Shown here: in pieces, positions 9,631 through 50,612 of the stretch
Position numbering within the stretch: position 1 is the stretch's first letter
Layout: each line of letters starts with the position of its first letter
NCBI GenBank assembly: GCA_010094025.1
Contig: ML991841.1
Span: 89,055 to 153,054 of the forward strand
Source: Viridothelium virens
Taxonomy: Eukaryota; Ascomycota; Dothideomycetes; Trypetheliales; Trypetheliaceae
Direction of reading: 5' to 3'
Length of the DNA: 64,000 bases
The notes under the pieces: model-generated
Told to the model about the DNA's origin: nothing
The model's database searches: none
What the model saw: the letters and a program-made list of their open reading frames with translations, nothing else
Program-made: the position numbers and the translations under genes

Positions 9631-10299
9631 GGCACACCGTCCGCTGCCTTGTCCTGGGCCCAGATTGCGCAGGCAACAAGACTCCTTCAACCATAGATAT
9701 ATGAAGAATCACATGTGCATAGACGCTTATCTTGACTCTTGGTGGCGGCAAAGCGCGAACTTCTTCAGTAACCCGATACCCCGCATCGTCTCGATTTCAT
9801 GAGTATAAAGGCATTCCAAACAGGCCGCGGTTAAGCTAGCGTCTATAGAGGACCACTCATCCCGACTAGCTAACAAGCTGGGGCTCAAGCGCGGGAGTTC
9901 TACGTCGTGAAATAGGACCCACTGACTTCGGAAAGCTAAAATAAATGAGATACAGCTGCAGGAGACGAATGGATTCTTACCCAATAATACTCATTCCATG
10001 CATATCTGTCACGTCCAACCCGGGATGCGGGAGATCTGCTCTCCATCAAGTGACTAAAGGTATAACTCCGCCCACCATTCATCTAGTAGTTTTTCGTCTC
10101 CTGAGAAAGTGAGATGGAGCACTCTAATAGGACTAGTGCATCTTCATGCCGATGTCAGCCCGCTAGAGACTACATCCGGCGCTAAGTTGCAACCACCGTG
10201 GTTCGCGTCAACGCGCTCTCCACTAATTTGCTCCGGCAAGCCGTGACCTGAGGCATCCTCACAGCAACTACATCCAATAGTGTCGCATCAATTACCCGT
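9631..10299. other. Divergent intergenic region (DUF4185-like gene / RdRP)
   Basis: Serves as the upstream region of both flanking genes, which point away from each other. No RNA gene, repeat or recognisable regulatory motif was found. Confidence 0.4.
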
Positions 10300-13200
10300 A
10301 TGACGTCGGAACTTCATTCCGCACCAAATTTGTATAATATTCCTGATGGTACTTCGACCAATGTTCCCCGTACTCCACCACATAAATCCCATAAAGAGAT
10401 CAATGACATCGTTGAGTCATTGAGCACAAGATATAAGATCCCACTATATAGGCGCGACGGCCCCTTCTCGCCCAGCCAACGCCGTCGAACAGATGGAGAC
10501 TCTTGCTATAATATTATCAGGATCCTCTTTTTCAGCAATCAAGCAGCGCTAGACAAAGTCATCCTCGATTTCGAAGGTAGCGTCTTCGAGAATGGCACAG
10601 TTGCTGGACGACTTCAACATCTTACGACATTGCTCCGTGATCAGTTCTGGCTGGAACATGAGCGAGTACCGTCGAGAATTTCTGTCGAAGAGAGGCTGAA
10701 TGCAGCTAAAATACCTAAGGATTCAGAGACGCCATCAGTGGACGCAGGTTCCACCTCACCGGGAGGCCTCTCTGTGAAGGTAGATCCTCCGACCATATAC
10801 AATGAAAGAAAGCATGGGAATATTATTCGCGACTCAACTGGACGGTTTGCCCCCCAGTTCTCGGCTTTACCATCCTCGGCTACAGGACAAGGCAGCCCAT
10901 CAAGGCAGAAGGACTTGCCACAAATTGAGCATAAACGTGTCAAAAGTACGGATAATTCCATACCCGAATCCCTGTCAGATGGAGATTGGTCCTATGATAC
11001 CGCTCCTGAGCATGCCGCGGAGTCTCCAACTCTGATGGCTCAGGCACAAAGGCAGATGAGATTGGGTCTGCAAGAATCAGGTAAAGCGCGCCATAGCATC
11101 TCCTCCCCATTTCGAACACCGGTATCATCACCAACCAAGGCAGACCGAAAGAGATTGTCTGATGAGCTTTCGGCGGAGAGCTTCGAGACTGCGCCACAGT
11201 CGGCAAAGAGGAATAGAAGTAAAGAGGCGATGCTGTATAGTAGCTTCACCTCTGAAGCTTCAACTCTTCGCTCCACGAATGGCTCTTTCTGGTCGCAGGC
11301 ACAAGATGGGCAAATCACCGGAAACACCTCTTTTGTAGCGGAACCTGAGATTGAACTGGAGCCGAGCCATATAACTACACTGGATCAATTAGACGACGAG
11401 ATACTTTCACAGCCAATGGAAGAGTTGCATCTGGGAGAAGCAGTGGTAGACGTTATTAGAGACGCAGACTCTCACATTCACCAACTTTCGCAGAGTGCAG
11501 AAGCTGGTACTCGGACTTCTGAGCACTATCTAGTCCGAGATCTGCCAAAGCATGGTCTGTTCTGCGAGGAGATACCAGCAGATATCGCTCCAACTAATTT
11601 CTTCGCACGATACGAGGTGTGTAGAGTTGCACAGCACACAGCAGTCGCAGTCCCAGAATTGCTTGCCGGGTATGACGGTAACTTTGATGATTACGACGCT
11701 CTATGGTCCCATCTTGGAACTATTGCGGGGTCTCAGAAGCTCCCAAAGCGGACAGACTCGACGGCCTGGGCCAATGCGAAGGCTCGCTCCCCTGAGGTAA
11801 TCCTTACAGGATCTCTATTCTTCAACCGCAAGCGGCGCAATTCTATCTTTCATTTGCGACTTGAACCAATCCAAAACGAAAAATCTTGTCGCTTCCAACG
11901 TGCTTTCCGAACTGATCGTTTTCTTTATCTGAATGTGCCCGCTGTCCGGCAAGTGCCGGAGGGGTTAAGTTACCTTAAGGGCCAGGAGGAGGCCCTCATT
12001 GGCCGCTACAAGCAATGGCTCGCAAGTGAGCATGAATTTTTGGGACGTAAGTGGCGAGTGTTAATGGTTGAGACGAAGCAAAGCAAGAAGATCGCTCGTC
12101 AGCCAAATGCCAAAATGGGACAAAGACTGATTCTCTTCGCAACGGACGGTGATGACGTACAGCACCTCCCTAACAAGTACGACCTGATGAACTCTTTGGC
12201 CGCCGAAAAATTCGAAGCACAGGATCTCGATCGTCTTATCAACTGGTTTTTGCCGATCAAGCAAAATCTTGATCAGCCTTTCTGCAAGGCATATTCACGT
12301 TTAGAGCTGGGTAGGCGCTCAGCTTCGCTTGTTTCAAGACAGATGCTCAACTTCAATAGGGTTCTCAAAAACAATACAAACCGTTCTTTTCTTGCCCAGT
12401 CAAATTCGGTATCGCGAAGACACGAAACCTGATGGAACGCCGGAAAGCATGGAATTCAACGACTCCTCTCTTGACTGGTCGATGAAGCTGGATTCTACTC
12501 TTGTCATGGACGACGTATGTGCATAAAGCTGCATCATGTGGCAACGCAGTCGCTAACTTCCGTAGGGATGTGGTGCTATTTCCTTAGGTGCAGCTCAAAA
12601 AATGTGGCAGATCATGGAGATGACCGACCCACTGCCCAGTGCTATACAAGCTCGAATTGGTAGTGCAAAGGGTGTGTGGTACATAAGTGCACCCACAGAT
12701 ACGACGTCTTCAGAACATCGCAAAACATGGATTGAAATCAAGCAGAGCCAGCTCAAATTCCATCCTCATGACGACGACCTGGTCGATAAGACTTGTGATA
12801 GGCGCAGATTGGCTTTTGAGGTACTCAAATATTCTAAGCCTCTTACGAGCTCAACTTTGAATTTGGCCTTCATTCCAATTCTTCAGGATCGCGGTGTTTC
12901 AATAGACAGCATCTATCGTCAGGTTCGGGATCATCTTGATTTCGAACGTGAGAATTTACTCCAAGCACTCAATGGGCCGACGAGCCTGCGGAGATGGATA
13001 AATGCCCGATATACACTGCCCGAAGATAATGATAGGGAAAATGGCTTGGCTTGGCTGGGTGGGCTACCATTCTCTTTACGGGAAAAGGTGATCTTTTTGC
13101 TTGAGGTATAGTAGCAAATGAAAACACCGCAGGGTTCTTTGAACGTTCTGACATTAGCTAGGGTGGCTTTGAACCATTGCAGAACCGATGTCTTGCAAAA

Positions 13201-14808
13201 GCAACGTATAGACTCGTTCATACATTTAGCTGGAAGTTCATACAGGGTTCGAGCATACCGCTTGGTCTGTCAACTAATGCTATCGGAATCGCGGATCCCA
13301 AAGATGTCCTTGCGCCAGGCGAGATCCATTTAGCCTTTTCGCAAGATTTCCATGACGAGAAGTCAGGACAAACTCTCTCGTTTTTGAATAAAAAGGATGT
13401 CCTAGTGGCCCGGCATCCTTGTATGCGACGTTCAGATATACAAAAAGTGAGAATCTTGCCGTTTCCTGGCTCAGTCTAACCTCTGCAGGTTCGCGCGGTC
13501 TTCAAGCCAGAACTTAGTCACATTCGTGATGTGGTCATCTTCTCACGGAAAGGCCAAATACCACTTGCACATAAGTTGCAAGGGGGCGATTATGATGGAG
13601 ACACGGTACAGAACCCTTACCTCCGCTTGTTTTGAAAGTAGACGCTGACGTTTCACCAGTTTTGGATCTGTTGGGAACCTCTTCTTACACAGGAATTTCA
13701 AAATGCTCCGGCACCAACCAATGTGCCCAGTCCCCAGTCATATAGGATTCGCGTCGACAAGACTCCTCTTCGCGCCATACTCAACGAGGCGGATCCGGAG
13801 CCATTACGAGAGTTTCTTAAGCAGAGTTTCCACTTCAGGAGTCAGCCCGACTTGCTAGGAGTCGTTACCAACGATCATCAGAGTCTTTCCTATGCCGAGA
13901 ATACGATTGATTCGCCTGGGTTGACTTGCTATGCTGACATGCACGACTATTTGATCGACTCTGCAAAGAATGGATATTCCTACTCATTTCAGGATTATCG
14001 CCGGTTCAAGGCCGATTGCAAGGACATCAGGATCAAGTCGCTTCCAGAACCCGCCTACAGAAAAGTCACCAAAGCAAAGATGGATACGACGACTATAAGG
14101 AGAGGCCAAAGCCTCATAGACCCCTCCATCAAACACAATCCACAACACATCGTCGACAAGCTTGTGTTTCAAACTATCGCACCTCACATCGAAGAAACAT
14201 TACGACAAGTCGACGCACGTTTCGCTGATTCACCGACCAGCGACCCAGAGCTTACGTCGCTCTACGAGGAATATCGCAGCTACGCCGAAGACGACTCCAG
14301 ACTTGGTGACGACTCCCTACGGAATGAGCTCGATGACCTCGTTCGACGGCTTGTCGATCTTAAAAACGAGTTCAATTCCGCGAGGGATCGAAAGTTCGAT
14401 ATGGACAATATTGAGCAATTTGAGGAGCATATTCAACGATTTCACAACATTTACCAAAATAATATCATACCGACCACACCCAGCCACCTTTCGCGTGACA
14501 TGCGACGCACGCTATGCAGGCGTAAAGGTCCTCATGAACCGACCGAATGGGATTTGCTGAAGGCATCAGCATTGCATGCGGTTTGTCACAAATCTTACTC
14601 ATTCGTGTTTCAGACTGCAGGAAAGGAACTCGTCGAGTTGAAGTCCGCAGCTTCGTCGTCTGGACGGAGGAACCTAGTGCATTCCCAGTGGGAGATGATG
14701 AAGCCGCGGAAGGCGAAAAAATTGGAGACTGCGGCTGCTATACGAGATGACGATGATGATGCAAAGAGCGAAGGCATGGCAGAGAACATCGCGGACGATA
14801 TGGAATGA
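10300..14808 (+). CDS. RNA-dependent RNA polymerase, QDE-1/RRP type (RNA silencing)
   Basis: Six exons join without frame loss: 10300-12310, 12360-12514, 12566-13105, 13162-13446, 13489-13605 and 13660-14808, giving 1418 residues. Introns are 42-56 bp. The catalytic DYDGD motif of cellular RdRPs lies at about residues 1031-1035 in exon 5 (LQGGDYDGDTF). Upstream motifs of the double-psi beta-barrel core include LGFSKTIQTVLFLPSQIRY, VMDDGCGAIS and KGVWY. Size and motif position are close to Neurospora QDE-1 (1402 residues, motif near 1007). The enzyme makes double-stranded RNA from aberrant transcripts for Dicer in quelling or related pathways. The N-terminal 350 residues are Ser-rich and poorly conserved. 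Whether it is the QDE-1, SAD-1 or RRP-3 orthologue cannot be settled without a phylogeny. Confidence 0.93.
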
Positions 14809-26595: not shown

Positions 26596-26805
26596 AGCGC
26601 TCGTACAGCTGTGGAATGTTTTTACTCACACAAAATTTTAAAATGGCCCAGAAAAAAGTGGGCGTTAATATTGGAGATACTTAAGTACTGCTTCCATATG
26701 CCGTAATCATATTTAGGAAAGCGCGACGGGCTGCCGTAAATTTTTGTGTAAATCTTTCCATGATTGATATAGATATTCTTCAAAAAAGACTCCTTTGTTA
26801 AATCG
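26110..26805. other. AT-rich segment before tRNA-Cys
   Basis: Apart from the uncertain frames described for 25.7-26.6 kb, no gene is seen. From about 26480 the base composition turns clearly AT-rich and continues so to about 27330, around the tRNA gene. Confidence 0.4.
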
Positions 26806-26944
26806 GAGGCGGTAGCTCAGCGGTAAGGATCCCGCATTCCATGAATTAAATTTCATTCTAATCCGTCCTCGTATAGGTAGAGTATGGGATTGCAGTGCGA
26901 TTATTACCATCCTATGGTCAGGAGTTCGAACCTCCTTCGCCTCT
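26806..26944 (+). tRNA. tRNA-Cys(GCA), interrupted by a 13-nt and a 54-nt segment
   Basis: After removing 26823-26876 and 26896-26908, the remaining 72 nt fold as a full cloverleaf. The acceptor is GAGGCGG with TCGCCTC; the D-stem GCTC pairs with GAGT around loop AGCGGTA; the anticodon stem TGGGA pairs with TCCTA around loop TTGCAGA (anticodon GCA); the variable loop is TGGTC; the T-stem AGGAG pairs with CTCCT around loop TTCGAAC; the discriminator is T. Non-Watson-Crick pairs are G-U wobbles only. Length and the TTGCAGA loop fit fungal tRNA-Cys. The 13-nt segment sits at the normal 37/38 intron site. The 54-nt D-loop segment does not (listed separately). A run of eight T at 26953-26960 is a likely Pol III terminator. 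Confidence 0.75.
26823..26876 (+). other. GT...AG insert in the D-loop of tRNA-Cys
   Basis: A 54-nt segment beginning GTAAGG and ending GTATAG interrupts the D-loop after AGCG. It has a CTAAT branch-like word whose A is at 26861, 15 nt before the end, resembling the spliceosomal introns of neighbouring protein genes. Its first G completes the A-box word TAGCTCAGCGG, so the internal promoter stays readable. GGTA is repeated at both borders, which leaves the exact junction ambiguous by a few bases. Confidence 0.6.
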
Positions 26945-45235: not shown

Positions 45236-46615
45236 ATGGCACCGGCCAGAATTGTTGTATTTGCAGGTAAGAATCCATCTTTCCATCTCCACTGCCGCAA
45301 TCAGCCACCACTGACGTCACTGTGTAGGGGACCATTGTGGACCAGAGGTAGGCTGAGCCTCGTGCAATTGTCTTTTGACGACCAGAACTGATAGGCAGCA
45401 GGTTACAGCAGAGGCTTTGAAGGTATATACCGTCATCAACTGCTCTTGCTTTGGTGCCTGGCTGAATCGTTATAGGTGCTTAGAGTCATCGAAAAAGAGT
45501 CGGATCTCCAATTCGATTTTCAAGAGCATTTACTCGGAGGGGTATGCGCACATTTTGTCTCCTGCACCCTGAAGATTGCACTGATACCTTTGGCTAGGCG
45601 TCAATCAACGCGACAGGTCAGCCTCTGACTGACGAGGCTTTGAATGCAGCCAAAGATGCCGACGCCGTCATCTTGGGGGCAATAGGTGGTCCAGTAAGTG
45701 TCATAGTACAAACACACAAACTCTGGCTTACTGGCCTTCCCAAAGGAATGGGGTACGAGCCAAGTCCGCCCTGAACAGGGAATCCTTAAGCTCCGTAAAG
45801 AGATGGGCACATTTGGGAACCTTCGACCATGTTTCTTCGCCTCAGAAGCTCTCGTCGACACATCGCCTCTGAAACCTGAAGTCTGCCGCGGCACAAACTT
45901 CATGGTTCTCCGCGAGCTCACGGGAGGTATTTACTTCGGTGACCGTAAAGAAGACGATGGCAGTGGTTATGCACTGGACACAGAACCCTACTCGCGGATG
46001 GAAATCGAACGAGTGACAAGACTAGCGGCATACCTGGCCATGGCAGAAGACCCACCACTGCCGGTATGGAGTTTGGATAAAGCCAACGTCCTGGCAACGT
46101 CGAGACTCTGGAGGAAGACAGTGACCGAGTTGATGGCTAAGGAGTTCCCGAATCTCAAGCTTGGTCACCACCTCATCGACTCTGCAGCCATGTTGATGGT
46201 AAAGAACCCACGAGCCCTGAACGGTGTCATTGTTACAAGCAACCTATTCGGCGACATCATTACTGATGAAGCAAGCGTCATACCCGGTAGTCTCGGCCTA
46301 CTACCTAGCGCCAGCTTGGCCGGTATTCCAGATGGTAAGACAAAATGCAATGGCATCTACGAGCCTATCCATGGATCAGCGCCGGACATCTCGGGTAAAG
46401 GAATCGTCAATCCAGTGGCGGCGATTCTATCGGTGGGTATGCTATTGAAATATTCTCTACTTCGACCAGACTTGGCTTCAAAGATTGACGCTGCCGTGCG
46501 AACGGTGATAGAGAGTGGTGTAAAGACTACCGATATCGGCGGAACAGCGAGCACTAAGGAGGTAGGTGATGCAGTCGCTAAGGAATTAAGCTCGATCATC
46601 AAGAGTGGCAAATAG
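45236..46615 (+). CDS. 3-isopropylmalate dehydrogenase (leucine biosynthesis)
   Basis: Six exons join in frame: 45236-45266, 45328-45347, 45402-45422, 45476-45541, 45598-45693 and 45746-46615, giving 367 residues (yeast Leu2 has 364). The N-terminal text is spread over micro-exons of 31, 20 and 21 bp. Family motifs: [30 protein letters not shown] at the start, [24 protein letters not shown]-like text ([13 protein letters not shown]), [45 protein letters not shown], and [20 protein letters not shown]. The enzyme oxidises and decarboxylates 3-isopropylmalate with NAD+ in the third step of leucine synthesis. It is the LEU2/leu-1/leu2A type; fungi can have paralogues. An imperfect Leu3-type site lies upstream. 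Confidence 0.95.
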
Positions 46616-46944: not shown

Positions 46945-47460
46945 TCACTGACCCAAATACTCCTTCAACACCTCCACAATCACCTGATGATCCTCCTCCT
47001 GCCTCAACCCACTCACCACCACCACCCCGACCACGCCTTCCACCCCCTTCACCCGTATCGGAAACCCCCCACCATGAATCGCATATTCATACCCGCGCTG
47101 CTCCCCCAACCCCGTCCGCCGCAGAAACTCGCCGTCCTCCAGATACTTCCGCCGCATCCACCACGTGCTGCGGCCCCACCGCAACACCGTCGCCCGCTTT
47201 CGCGCTACCCACACCTCGTTGTCCGGCGTCACGCCCCCCGGTCGCGTCACGCTGTGGAAGAGGAGCTGGGCGGAGTTCGCGAGCGAGATGGAGATGACGA
47301 CGGCGGAGGAGGGGGCCAGCGCGAGGAGCCGGGTTCGCAGCCGCGTGCCTAGGTCCCAGGCGGTGTCGGCGGTGAAGGAGGGGAGGGTAAGGGCGGCTTC
47401 GGTGGCTTCGATCGTGGGGAGGTCGGTTGCGGGAGAGGGGAGGGCGGTGGTGCTCGCCAT
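46945..47460 (-). CDS. UPF0303 / HbpS-GlcG-like protein (YBR137W type)
   Basis: A single exon of 171 residues. It shows the family pattern: FTADTAWDLGTRLRTRLLAL, then VVISISLANSAQLLFHSVTR, DNEVWVARKRATVLRWGRST, and a C-terminal YEYAIHGGGFPIRVKGVEG with VVVVSGLRQEEDHQVIVEVL. These match the UPF0303 / haem-degrading (HbpS, GlcG) fold, whose yeast member YBR137W is a cytosolic protein linked to tail-anchored protein handling and stress. The biochemical role is not firmly known. The gene is GC-rich with strong third-position G/C bias, and converges with the leucine gene. Confidence 0.85.
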   Translation of the reverse strand: MASTTALPSPATDLPTIEATEAALTLPSFTADTAWDLGTRLRTRLLALAPSSAVVISISLANSAQLLFHSVTRPGGVTPDNEVWVARKRATVLRWGRSTWWMRRKYLEDGEFLRRTGLGEQRGYEYAIHGGGFPIRVKGVEGVVGVVVVSGLRQEEDHQVIVEVLKEYLGQ

Positions 47461-48087
47461 GGAGGGTTGGTATTTGGTGGACGTGTTCTGGGTATTGGGG
47501 AGAGATGGAAGGGTTTTTTACATTGTATGGGGAACGAGCTGTCTGGAGTAGTAGCAGCCCCCTTAGATGTGGCGTTTGACATGAAAGACCTGCCTTGGTA
47601 AGATAGAAATTACGGAGCTGCCCCACTTTCTTCTTGAGCTGCCCGTTTCATCCTGACTTTCATGGAAGGTGGGGCTTTCCTCCGATCTCGGTGAGAAACT
47701 ACCTACCCAGATCCAGACCACTACTCCGTATATGCAGTGCTCAAGATTCTTGGAGACTACCCTTCGTCATAACCAGGCTTGGGCCAAGGATGGTCAGGGA
47801 TGTATATTTTAGTGAGATACATAGAAACCTGGAATTATCCGCATTGTACCGTGTATCATCTTGTCCAACGAGTTAATTGAAAATTTTGAAACTTTTGCTA
47901 TCGGCGCCGCTTCCTTCTAGATCAGGAAATAAGTCGTGGAAGGGACCGGAAAAGTGGGCAATCTTGGCGTTGTGAAAGGACAGGGGCGGAGCTTGGTTTT
48001 GCTAGGTTCTGTCCGCTTTGGTGTACTCTCGTTGGCACTGCAAGTGATCTTATATATATTTTAATTGAGACTTTGCGTACTTGTCTT
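47461..48087. other. Region between the UPF0303 gene and tRNA-Thr
   Basis: 627 bp, upstream of the UPF0303 gene. No protein-coding signal or repeat was found. Confidence 0.4.
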
Positions 48088-48092
48088 GCCAG

Positions 48093-48147
48093 GTAAGCAG
48101 CGAATGGCGCCCCGTGTAGATTTCAGAGGCGTTGACAGATCTCTCAG
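48093..48147 (+). other. GT...AG insert in the acceptor stem of tRNA-Thr
   Basis: A 55-nt segment starting GTAAGC and ending TCTCAG, with a TTGAC branch-like word whose A (48135) lies 12 nt from the end. The upstream flank CAG gives CAG|GTAAG, a textbook 5' splice site. Without excision the 5' acceptor strand would read CTCAGCT, with a C-C mismatch at the first pair; with excision it becomes GCCAGCT and pairs along all seven positions. Confidence 0.6.
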
Positions 48148-48208
48148 CTTGGCGCAGTGGTAACGCGTCGCACTTGTATTGCTCAATATGATATGCGAAG
48201 ATCACTGG

Positions 48209-48258
48209 GTAGGCTTAATACTGTCAAACGTATTCGTATCGTGCTTAACCTTTGTTAG
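48209..48258 (+). other. GT...AG insert in the T-arm of tRNA-Thr
   Basis: A 50-nt segment starting GTAGGC and ending TGTTAG, with a CTTAAC branch-like word 10 nt before the end. It lies exactly between the 5' strand of the T-stem and the T-loop. Its last two bases together with TTCGATTCC still give a readable B-box, so transcription by Pol III could survive the insertion. Confidence 0.6.
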
Positions 48259-48278
48259 TTCGATTCCAGTAGTTGGCA

Positions 48279-48509
48279 GTAAATCCACTGGCAAAACACC
48301 TTTTTTTTTTTTCCTTTTTTTTTTAATCTCTTCTTATTCTGCCCCGGTGGTCACCGTTACAGTCCACAGAGCCTTTTCGATTAAAATTAGGTTTTCTCGA
48401 TTTTTGTTGATATGGCTTTTAGCTGCAGAGATTAAGTATTGAAGATATCTTTGCATGCCTGGAGCAAGATATTGAAAACTCTATTTTGGCATCCGATAGC
48501 TGCAGATTC
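48279..48509. repeat. T-rich tract downstream of tRNA-Thr
   Basis: Two T-runs (12 and 10 T) at 48301-48324 separated by CC, followed by generally T-rich sequence up to the end of the carboxylesterase gene. Probably a Pol III terminator plus the esterase 3' flank. Confidence 0.6.
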
Positions 48510-50148
48510 TCATACTGGGGGTACCGCGCCTGGCTTTCCAACAGCCCCGTTGCAAGGCTCCTCCAAAATATTGGTAGATATATTCTGAACGACGACACCA
48601 TTAAATGCAAACTCCAGAGCCTGCCCACCAGGCTTGTACTCAGGCCAGCCAGCTTTACTCAACCCATTCACCGGGTCGGAAATGAAATCTAGATAATAGT
48701 CCTGCATCTGTCTGGACACAGCAAGCTCAAACGGCGTACTTGCACCACGAGCAATCCCCGATGTGCCAAAGATAAGCGGCAGCTCCGACGAATGATAAGC
48801 TCCTTCCCACGGCCTTGGAGCAATATTACTAAAGTTTCCTGCGTACAGATATCGGTGTGTCGGCACGCCTACCGCATACCGATTGGTTGTCGTCAGGTCT
48901 GCTGGGCACAAGAACTCATTTAGGGTGGTCATGTTCGCAGCGGTTATATTCACTCCATTAGGGTTAAATGATACCAGCGAGCGCCCTTCATCCGCATTCG
49001 TGCCAAGGATAGCAGGCTTCTTGGTGAAGTTGCCTGCGAGCGCGCGGGCTGTGTAGTTTGCGAATCTCGTGCGGTTGTCGACGACCTGGTTAAAGGACAA
49101 GCCCGGCGCCGTCCCCGCGTCTCCATACGCTTTCAGGAATGCCTCGATGTCGGCTTGCGGGACCTTCTTAAGGCAAGAGAGTTGCGCTTGGTCAGATCCT
49201 GTGCAGTTGAAGTGTGCGGCGACAAAGGTGAAATTGCTGGTGGCTGGGGCAACGTTCCCAGCGGGTAAGAGGGCACTACCGGAATCGAGGATGAGGCCCG
49301 CAATGATGGGGTCAGTTGGGTAGGCGAAATTGTAGTAATCGACGGATTCGGCGCCGGCAGATTGACCCCAAATGGTGATCCGGGAGGCGTCGCCTCCGAA
49401 GGCGTGGGCGTTGGTCCGTACCCATTCAAGGGCGACGCGTTGGTCAAGAAGTCCAAGATTTTGATCGGAGAGGGGAATTGCGCCGGACTGGGGGAAACCG
49501 AAAATGTTGAGGCGGTAACTGAAAAATGTAAGCTTGGATGCCAGGACTGATACAGGAAATCGGTAGCCACGGTCATGGACTTAATGGAAAAACGTACTTG
49601 ATGCCAATGACAATATGTCGGCCGGTTCTCTGAACCCATTGAGCGGGGATCTGATACTCGATCTGCCCACCACCCGTCTGAAAACCACCTCCATAAATCC
49701 AGACTAGTACCGGGAGAAGCTCCTGCTGCCCTTGTCCGTACTGTGCAGTGCTGTTACAGTCCGATGAAGTTTGATACGGGGCCCAAACATTCAACGTCAG
49801 ACAGTCCTCGGACGTAGGGCCTGATATCACAAATTGAGGCGCATCTGTGTTGTATACTGAAGGAATTGAAGAAGCATACTGGGGACAAGAAGGGCTAAAG
49901 GATGTTGCGTCAATTGTCCCGTTCACTGGTGATTTTGGAACAGCCGGTTCCCATCTTAGATCTCCAACGGGAGGCTCTGCGAAAGGAATGCCATAGAATT
50001 CGGCAACACCAGGTGTGCTGCCATTGATGAAACCAGAGACCGTCCCGATAGAAGTATTAATGGTGAGGGTCTTTACTGCTGCCGCTACGGAAATGTAGCT
50101 AATTATTAGACCAATGAAAGTCGCTCTGACGTTATGAGGAGGCGCCAT
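48510..50148 (-). CDS. Secreted type-B carboxylesterase / lipase
   Basis: Exons 50148-49598 and 49518-48510, joined by a 79-bp intron, give 519 residues. An N-terminal signal peptide (FIGLIISYISVAAAVKT) is followed by the carboxylesterase type-B pattern: FYGIPFAEPPVGDLRW, SEDCLTLNVWAP, the oxyanion-hole loop VWIYGGGFQTGG, and the nucleophile elbow GQSAGAES with Ser at about 237. A conserved His occurs in AYHSSELPLIFG. Many N-glycosylation sites support secretion. Family members hydrolyse esters of lipids, esters of phenolics or xenobiotics; the true substrate is not predictable. The gene diverges from the nitrogen-regulator-family gene, with about 460 bp between starts. Confidence 0.92.
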
Positions 50149-50612
50149 GATCTTGATTTCGGCCTGAGAAAAGGGGAGGCTCGCGAAACTTCATCTTTAT
50201 GAGGAGAAATTGAGTATTTAACCATAACTCGGCTGTATTCGGTCCTTTGTTGACGAAAAACGTCATGATCGCAGAACGATCAAACCCTTGGACTTACTGG
50301 GTAGACTATGATGCTCATTTGCCTAAGTCCAGTACTTATTGCAGATACCCTGACGTCGTTGACAGGCATTGGGAATCAGGTACGCGGGGAACGATAGCAC
50401 CATTGTGTGGGGATGGAGTCCGGGATGGATTTGCCGTCGGGTTTAGCTCAAAAGGGGGAGATAATTGCGTTGTCAGGACAACCGGGTCCCTGCCGCGATC
50501 TGTTTATGCCCGCGGATGCACCACCGATTTTGATCCACTAGGAGCAGTTCTTGAGGCTTGGGCAATCACCTCCAGCATTCCTACATTCTCAACATTACAC
50601 AAGAGTCATGCG
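50149..50612. other. Divergent upstream region
   Basis: Between the carboxylesterase (-) and the nitrogen-regulator-family gene (+). The plus strand is open and in frame with the latter from 50247, but this stretch lacks similarity to the family, so it may be leader rather than coding. Confidence 0.4.

Follow-up and report, generated by a model that had tools for sequence, protein, structure and literature searches.

The bark lichen Viridothelium virens (Dothideomycetes, Trypetheliaceae) harbors, within the 64,000-nucleotide stretch of contig ML991841.1 analyzed here (the window), a tRNA-Thr(UGU) gene at 48088–48278 on the plus strand. The gene is interrupted by 55 nt between tRNA positions 5 and 6 (5/6), by 14 nt at 37/38 and by 50 nt at 53/54. 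Such an arrangement raises the question of which machinery removes the two segments lying outside the canonical 37/38 site, and whether a gene of this build is in use.

Organization of the tRNA-Thr(UGU) gene and a second gene in the window

The Thr gene is located between genes for an HbpS-like protein (46948–47517, minus strand) and a carboxylesterase (about 48513–50190, minus strand). The ORF at 45803–46615 encodes a protein 100% identical to V. virens 3-isopropylmalate dehydrogenase. Elsewhere in the window (about 10252–14000) is a gene with five predicted introns; its product resembles a Trypethelium subeluteriae protein of the family PF05183 (RNA-dependent RNA polymerase). An earlier note, made from the sequence alone, had described the three interruptions of the Thr gene, and the positions and lengths it gave were exact to the base. 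The GTAAGC..CAG and GTAGGC..TAG ends were confirmed, and both branch-like words were present. The features of the gene are as follows:

48051..48059, plus strand: TATA element of the RNA polymerase III (Pol III) type, 37 nt 5' of exon 1
48088..48092, plus strand: exon 1, tRNA positions 1–5, pairing with positions 68–72
48093..48147, plus strand: ectopic intron 1 at 5/6, 55 nt, GTAAGC..TTGAC..CAG
48132..48136, plus strand: branch-point-like TTGAC of intron 1, putative branch A at 48135, ending 11 nt before the intron end
48148..48208, plus strand: exon block 2, positions 6–53, within which the 37/38 intron lies
48150..48160, plus strand: A box TGGCGCAGTGG, uninterrupted in genomic DNA
48179..48192, plus strand: canonical intron at 37/38, 14 nt
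48209..48258, plus strand: ectopic intron 2 at 53/54, 50 nt, GTAGGC..TTAAC..TAG
48245..48249, plus strand: branch-point-like TTAAC of intron 2, putative branch A at 48248, ending 9 nt before the intron end
48257..48267, plus strand: B box AGTTCGATTCC, one mismatch, interrupted by ectopic intron 2
48259..48278, plus strand: exon 4, positions 54–73
48301..48312, plus strand: T-run resembling a Pol III terminator, beginning 22 nt past the 3' end of the gene

TATA-like words upstream of the gene begin at −37 to −33 relative to 48088. The B box keeps all but one base despite being split, because intron 2 ends in AG. Excision of all three introns yielded a 72-nt cloverleaf with a full 7-bp acceptor stem and a 5-bp T stem. 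This was identified by ARAGORN as tRNA-Thr(tgt), in line with the earlier note; the same call was obtained when the 14-nt intron was retained, and no tRNA was called on the unspliced gene. Neither ARAGORN (bacterial setting) nor Rfam at the gathering score listed a tRNA in the whole window, and a genome-wide Rfam search detected the Thr gene only as a below-cut-off match (23.2 bits). No uninterrupted tRNA-Thr(TGT) gene was found in the assembly (30.7 Mb, 175 contigs), where the spliced tRNA used as a query matched only pieces of the interrupted gene, a result in favor of the reading proposed earlier. Placement of the introns by structure alone gave nine tied best solutions for intron 1, GT-AG among them, and two for intron 2, of which GT-AG was one.

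The Thr gene scored 30.0 on our parser, a crude scheme of our own and not a covariance model. The same scheme was applied to 1057 window tiles on both strands with zero to two GT-AG excisions, the plus-strand tiles of the Thr gene being excluded. A single locus scored above 20 (29.2), the next tile reaching 19.9. This locus is a tRNA-Cys(GCA) gene with the following features:

26806..26944, plus strand: tRNA-Cys(GCA) gene from the tile scan, with TATA at 26768 (−38) and a T-run from 26953
26823..26876, plus strand: ectopic intron at 18/19 (site read from the sequence), 54 nt, GTAAGG..CTAAT..TAG
26896..26908, plus strand: 37/38 intron, 13 nt

The A box of the Cys gene, TAGCTCAGCGGTA, is still readable in genomic DNA because the intron supplies its own GT. 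ARAGORN called the locus tRNA-His(atg) before excision and tRNA-Cys(gca) after it.

Ectopic introns in the nuclear tRNA gene set

A genome-wide search for tRNA genes with several introns, a check put forward in the earlier note, revealed that the build of the Thr gene is shared. Among 44 parsed nuclear tRNA genes, 27 carried ectopic GT-AG introns (32 introns) and 17 did not. Two ectopic introns each were present in the genes for Thr(TGT), Arg(TCG), Arg(TCT), Asn(GTT) and Gly(TCC). One was present in those for Ser(CGA), Trp(CCA), Lys(CTT) (two copies), initiator Met, Pro(CGG), Arg(CCT), Thr(CGT), Ala(AGC), Ser(AGA), Ala(CGC), Leu(CAA), Gln(TTG), Asp(GTC) (two copies), Ser(GCT), Arg(ACG), Gly(GCC) (two copies), elongator Met, Leu(TAA) and Cys(GCA). 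The initiator tRNA-Met was found in the assembly only in interrupted form. The structure of these genes, their motifs and the lack of an intact tRNA-Thr(TGT) or initiator tRNA-Met copy in the assembly are direct observations. As more than half of the readable nuclear tRNA genes are interrupted in this way, tRNA production apparently requires the mRNA-splicing machine in addition to the tRNA-splicing enzyme. The 44 parsed genes in 30.7 Mb are mostly single per anticodon.

The ectopic sites span 5/6 to 59/60, the commonest being G18/G19 (6 of 30 introns, plus that of tRNA-Cys), and none of the 30 lies at 37/38. Canonical 37/38 introns co-occur in many of the same genes, being present in 30 of the 42 script-parsed ones. 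They differ from the ectopic introns in site, in length (7–39 nt) and in that none of the 30 is of the GT..AG form.

The 44 genes comprise 42 parsed by script, one parsed by hand (L036) and the tRNA-Cys gene of the window; sets of 31 introns exclude tRNA-Cys, and sets of 30 exclude L036 as well. The Rfam search gave 40 tRNA matches, 31 of them above cut-off, with 16 on contig C129, which appears to be mitochondrial, and 15 elsewhere. The parsed genes were drawn from the Rfam matches over cut-off outside C129, from weak matches and from B-box searches. From a first list of 76 candidate places, all except two on C129 were fetched. A second list supplied 20 new places, of which 8 parsed as tRNA genes (L152–L156, L158, L160 and L163) and 12 did not; its places on C8, C25, C39, C79, C81, C94 and C96 were left unread, and one on C71 is the tRNA-Cys gene. 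The fractions given here apply to the parsed genes alone, since several isoacceptors were missing from the set, namely Phe, Tyr, Ile(AAT), Leu(AAG, CAG, TAG) and Val(TAC).

As a control, 55 loci (L088–L142) were fetched by pattern alone, one of which, L106, proved to be a tRNA gene. With up to two excisions, none of the 59 B-box-like sites in the remaining 54 loci reached a score of 20 (best 18.0) under a rule stricter than that used for the genes (GTR..YAG, 42–70 nt). One of the control loci, L107, gave ARAGORN matches under a looser single-excision test, and the parser lends it no support. For 25 genes with ectopic introns, ARAGORN returned the expected anticodon in 25 when all introns were removed, in 23 when only the ectopic ones were removed and in one from genomic DNA, even though introns of up to 60 nt were allowed on unspliced DNA; the corresponding numbers for 17 genes without ectopic introns were 17, 15 and 15. 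Standard finders would hence be expected to miss or misname much of such a tRNA set.

Splicing signals, signs of use and competing explanations

When the intron boundaries were placed by the cloverleaf only, blind to dinucleotides, GT-AG was among the best placements for 19 of 30 introns and any other pair for at most 4; in the other 11, the best placement was not GT-AG, which lay 0.1–2.2 points lower. Four signals that had not been used to find the introns were compared with 3779 random GT..AG segments. A purine at +3 was present in 29 of 32 ectopic introns (vs. 47% of the random segments), G at +5 in 29 of 32 (vs. 26%), a YAG 3' end in 29 of 32 (vs. 40%; the other three end in AAG) and yTrAy within 35 nt of the end in 30 of 32 (vs. 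20%). The branch motif occurred in 29 of 31 introns as against a shuffled mean of 12.7 and a maximum of 20 in 500. The introns are 46–64 nt long, centered on 51, plus one of 99 nt. Similar signals were seen in 11 mRNA introns (42–79 nt) of three protein genes in the window, predicted with V. virens and T. subeluteriae proteins with GT..AG enforced. Under the same rule these showed a +3 purine in 11/11, YAG in 10/11, +5 G in 8/11 and yTrAy in 7/11, the last two making this small sample weaker in signals than the tRNA introns. The hexamer GTAGGC that begins Thr intron 2 also opens two of them. In their 5' splice site, branch point, 3' splice site and length, the ectopic introns would thus belong to the U2 type, and of the two options left by the earlier note, spliceosomal-type introns or an ectopic class of another kind, the motif, length and placement tests favor the former.

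Recent copying of introns, or an introner-like family, was also considered. In an all-against-all comparison of 31 tRNA and 11 mRNA introns, where a single shuffled set scored 13 at best, six pairs exceeded that value: Asp–Asp (24), L082–L154 (17), L155 with an mRNA intron (15), L079 with mRNA introns (15 and 14) and Gly–Gly (14). The two paralogue pairs are expected; no introner-like family was seen in this comparison, since the other pairs are weak, and the proposal was set aside.

Elements expected of Pol III genes surround and pervade the interrupted genes. A TATA element was present at −42 to −30 in 18 of 25 genes with ectopic introns and in 10 of 17 without, compared with 0/24 and 0/17 in the control interval −62 to −50 and 1/21 and 2/17 at −80 to −68. 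Both genes with a 5/6 intron have TATA about 37 nt upstream of their 5-nt first exon. Runs of at least four T started no more than 22 nt from the 3' end in all 25 script-parsed genes with ectopic introns, some of which had been found through such runs. The A box reached at least 0.89 of consensus in the genomic DNA of 22 of 25 genes and was clearly broken in three; it is mostly kept because most D-loop introns begin with GT at or near GG. The TATA elements near −37 and the T-runs suggest that these are Pol III units. The Thr gene itself combines the cloverleaf, promoter and terminator expected of a functional Pol III tRNA gene.

For the paralogous genes, the acceptor pairs given here were read off the sequences. 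The two Asp(GTC) genes have an intron at the common site 24/25, and their mature parts are identical at 65 of 72 positions as compared with 38 of 51 columns in the introns. Between them, both bases of acceptor pairs 4-69 and 7-66, which face each other across the intron, have changed. In the two Gly(GCC) genes the common site is 25/26 (mature parts 66/71, introns 34 of 52 columns); pair 4-69 is changed on both strands and 5-68 from T-G to C-G. The introns of the two Lys(CTT) genes at 12/13 match in 33 of 53 columns, which does not exceed the best of 200 shuffles. The second Lys(CTT) gene (L036; G000:C63:130200-131300) retains a 50-nt intron, GTAAGT..CTAAC..TAG, that is intact and lies at 12/13 like that of its sister. 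Its T loop is damaged and its T arm is four bases shorter than that of the sister gene, and it is possibly a recent pseudogene. A tRNA-Trp candidate (L030; G000:C2:516867-520030) has T6 in its intron and a 31/39 mismatch.

From the signals and gene parts described above, it is very probable that the ectopic segments are introns of the U2 type, that the tRNA genes they interrupt are functional Pol III genes, and that the spliceosome removes these segments while SEN removes the 37/38 introns. The Thr gene would be a working gene transcribed by Pol III from the TATA at −37, the A box and the B box up to the T-run. Its two ectopic segments would be ordinary U2-type introns of about 50 nt with a 5' splice site, a branch point and YAG, to be excised by the nuclear spliceosome, and the tRNA endonuclease and ligase would take out the 14-nt intron. 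Since one ectopic intron interrupts the acceptor stem and the other the T arm, the ends would be trimmed and CCA added only once the spliceosome has acted, which would set the putative order of maturation. Points against this reading are the 11 introns whose best structural placement is not GT-AG, the T6 and the 31/39 mismatch of the tRNA-Trp candidate, the damaged second Lys(CTT) gene, the weaker signals of the small mRNA sample, the three broken A boxes, the intronless U6 and 5S genes, the weak central-helix control described below and the isoacceptors missing from the set.

Two of the alternatives concern the nature of the segments. Endonuclease-type ectopic introns cut at bulge-helix-bulge (BHB) motifs, as in Cyanidioschyzon and Crenarchaeota, would account for the positions, for archaea have multiple non-canonical tRNA introns at similar sites, e.g., 53/54 and 59/60, according to the available text of PMC4090602. 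One of the 31 ectopic introns does have the strict BHB motif, a weak yardstick in this genome as few 37/38 introns pass it either (3/30). At the junctions, where the earlier note had proposed looking for such folds, BHB pairing was at the permuted level (central-helix pairs 1.58 vs. 1.55, sd 0.14; outer pairs 1.26 vs. 1.35), and the Thr introns form 1 and 2 of the 4 central pairs. For the central helix the positive control is weak, the 37/38 introns being barely over permutation (2.13 vs. 1.93); their outer pairing, 2.9 of 3, arises partly by construction. The A-I pair was present in 21 of 30 of the 37/38 introns vs. 9 of 31 ectopic ones, and an endonuclease origin does not predict GTRNG, yTrAy or YAG. 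Chance-level pairing speaks against the endonuclease option, which is highly improbable. Degenerate group I introns or another self-spliced or maturase-spliced class could be thought of because, in the accessible part of PMC8527467, lichen rDNA holds degenerate group I introns besides spliceosomal ones. The motifs here are of the U2 type, no Rfam family reached the gathering score in the window, and the two Thr introns, the only ones folded, gave structures no more stable than those of shuffles (z +1.6 and +0.6), making such a class so improbable as to be nearly negligible. A ribozyme origin of the Thr introns (55 and 50 nt) was rejected for want of an Rfam match in the window and of a stable fold.

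The other two concern the use made of the genes. According to the portion of PMC4090602 at hand, eukaryotic tRNA genes with short insertions are usually regarded as pseudogenes, and the damaged T loop of the second Lys(CTT) gene would suit the idea that inserts have disrupted tRNA genes now out of use. Decay of this sort is nevertheless very unlikely, as 27 of 44 genes are affected, among them the sole initiator tRNA-Met copy found. The exons form full cloverleaves flanked by promoter-like and terminator-like elements, acceptor stems show paired changes between paralogues, and an intact Thr(TGT) copy was not found in the assembly. The suspicion of a decaying relic, raised in the earlier note, was testable to this extent and met with many sibling genes of like build instead of one relic. 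A Pol II non-coding transcript, spliced as such and then processed to release the tRNA, would make spliceosomal splicing unsurprising, and it would accommodate the T6 within the intron of the tRNA-Trp candidate, which should stop Pol III. It would leave the TATA near −37, the mostly intact A boxes, the B boxes and the 3' T-runs unaccounted for. Moreover, runs of at least four T are rarer in the tRNA introns than in shuffles (5/32 vs. 9.9, P = 0.026, a modest effect), unlike in the mRNA introns (5/11 vs. 2.6), while runs of at least five T did not differ significantly (1 vs. 3.4, P = 0.12). A Pol II origin is improbable to a still greater degree than decay.

Relation to known introns and consequences for tRNA production

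Splicing of tRNA is described as spliceosome-independent, e.g., in the available text of a 2026 review (PMC13149111). Among openly licensed PMC papers, as far as their available text goes, none was found that describes nuclear tRNA genes with spliceosomal introns, and the accessible parts of PMC6652019 and PMC11782384 held nothing further on the subject. The closest system is lichen and ascomycete rDNA, which contains spliceosomal introns, one of which was reported to be removed from a Pol I transcript by yeast spliceosomes (PMC8527467, available part). These introns are likewise mRNA-type (57 bp in the tested case), ectopic and situated in a non-Pol II structural RNA gene of lichen fungi, but the gene product is rRNA and the polymerase Pol I there, as against tRNA and Pol III here; the word "tRNA" is absent from the main text of that paper in the part available. 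The V. virens assembly gave no match to the ITS1 primer site.

A spliceosomal intron within a Pol III transcript is known from U6 snRNA genes, e.g., that of fission yeast, which contains an mRNA-type intron; this case differs in concerning a single snRNA and in being thought to result from reverse splicing near the catalytic nucleotides (PMC10484740, in the text available). The U6 copies found in V. virens, in contrast, are intronless. Ectopic tRNA introns also occur in archaea, in a red alga and in nucleomorphs, where their removal is attributed to the endonuclease, except that of very short nucleomorph tRNA introns, which is said to be unexplained. The introns of Cyanidioschyzon merolae, nucleomorphs and Crenarchaeota are similar to those of V. 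virens in lying outside 37/38, in numbering several per gene and in affecting much of the tRNA set. They differ in being attributed to the endonuclease and BHB-like motifs, whereas V. virens has BHB pairing at chance and spliceosomal signals (PMC4090602, PMC4033280, both as partly available).

It is probable that two splicing machines are obligatory for tRNA production in this lichen, the majority of isoacceptors, the sole initiator tRNA-Met found among them, needing the spliceosome. The same reading holds that intron sites may have been filtered by the internal Pol III promoter, in that at the favorite G18/G19 site the intron GT rebuilds the A box. Since these isoacceptors could not be made without the spliceosome, translation capacity would be directly coupled to pre-mRNA splicing. 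By analogy, a parallel may be drawn with the rDNA introns proposed to slow lichen growth. If the preferred reading is true, a genome with mRNA-type introns in over half of its parsed tRNA genes would break the rule of spliceosome independence and extend spliceosomal introns from mRNA, rRNA and U6 to tRNA. It would also point to large-scale action of the spliceosome on Pol III transcripts of high structure, and would provide a natural system for asking how essential RNA genes get invaded by introns.

Among other Pol III RNAs, no introns were present in the three U6 and five 5S copies found in the genome. One of the U6 genes (L161; G000:C116:32600-33200) has a B-box-like GGTTCGATCC about 28 nt beyond its 3' end, which resembles the downstream B box of yeast SNR6. 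Another locus with the B-box/T-run pattern (L164; G000:C2:162300-162900) is a candidate U5 snRNA gene (Rfam RF00020, 40.5 bits, gathering score 40).
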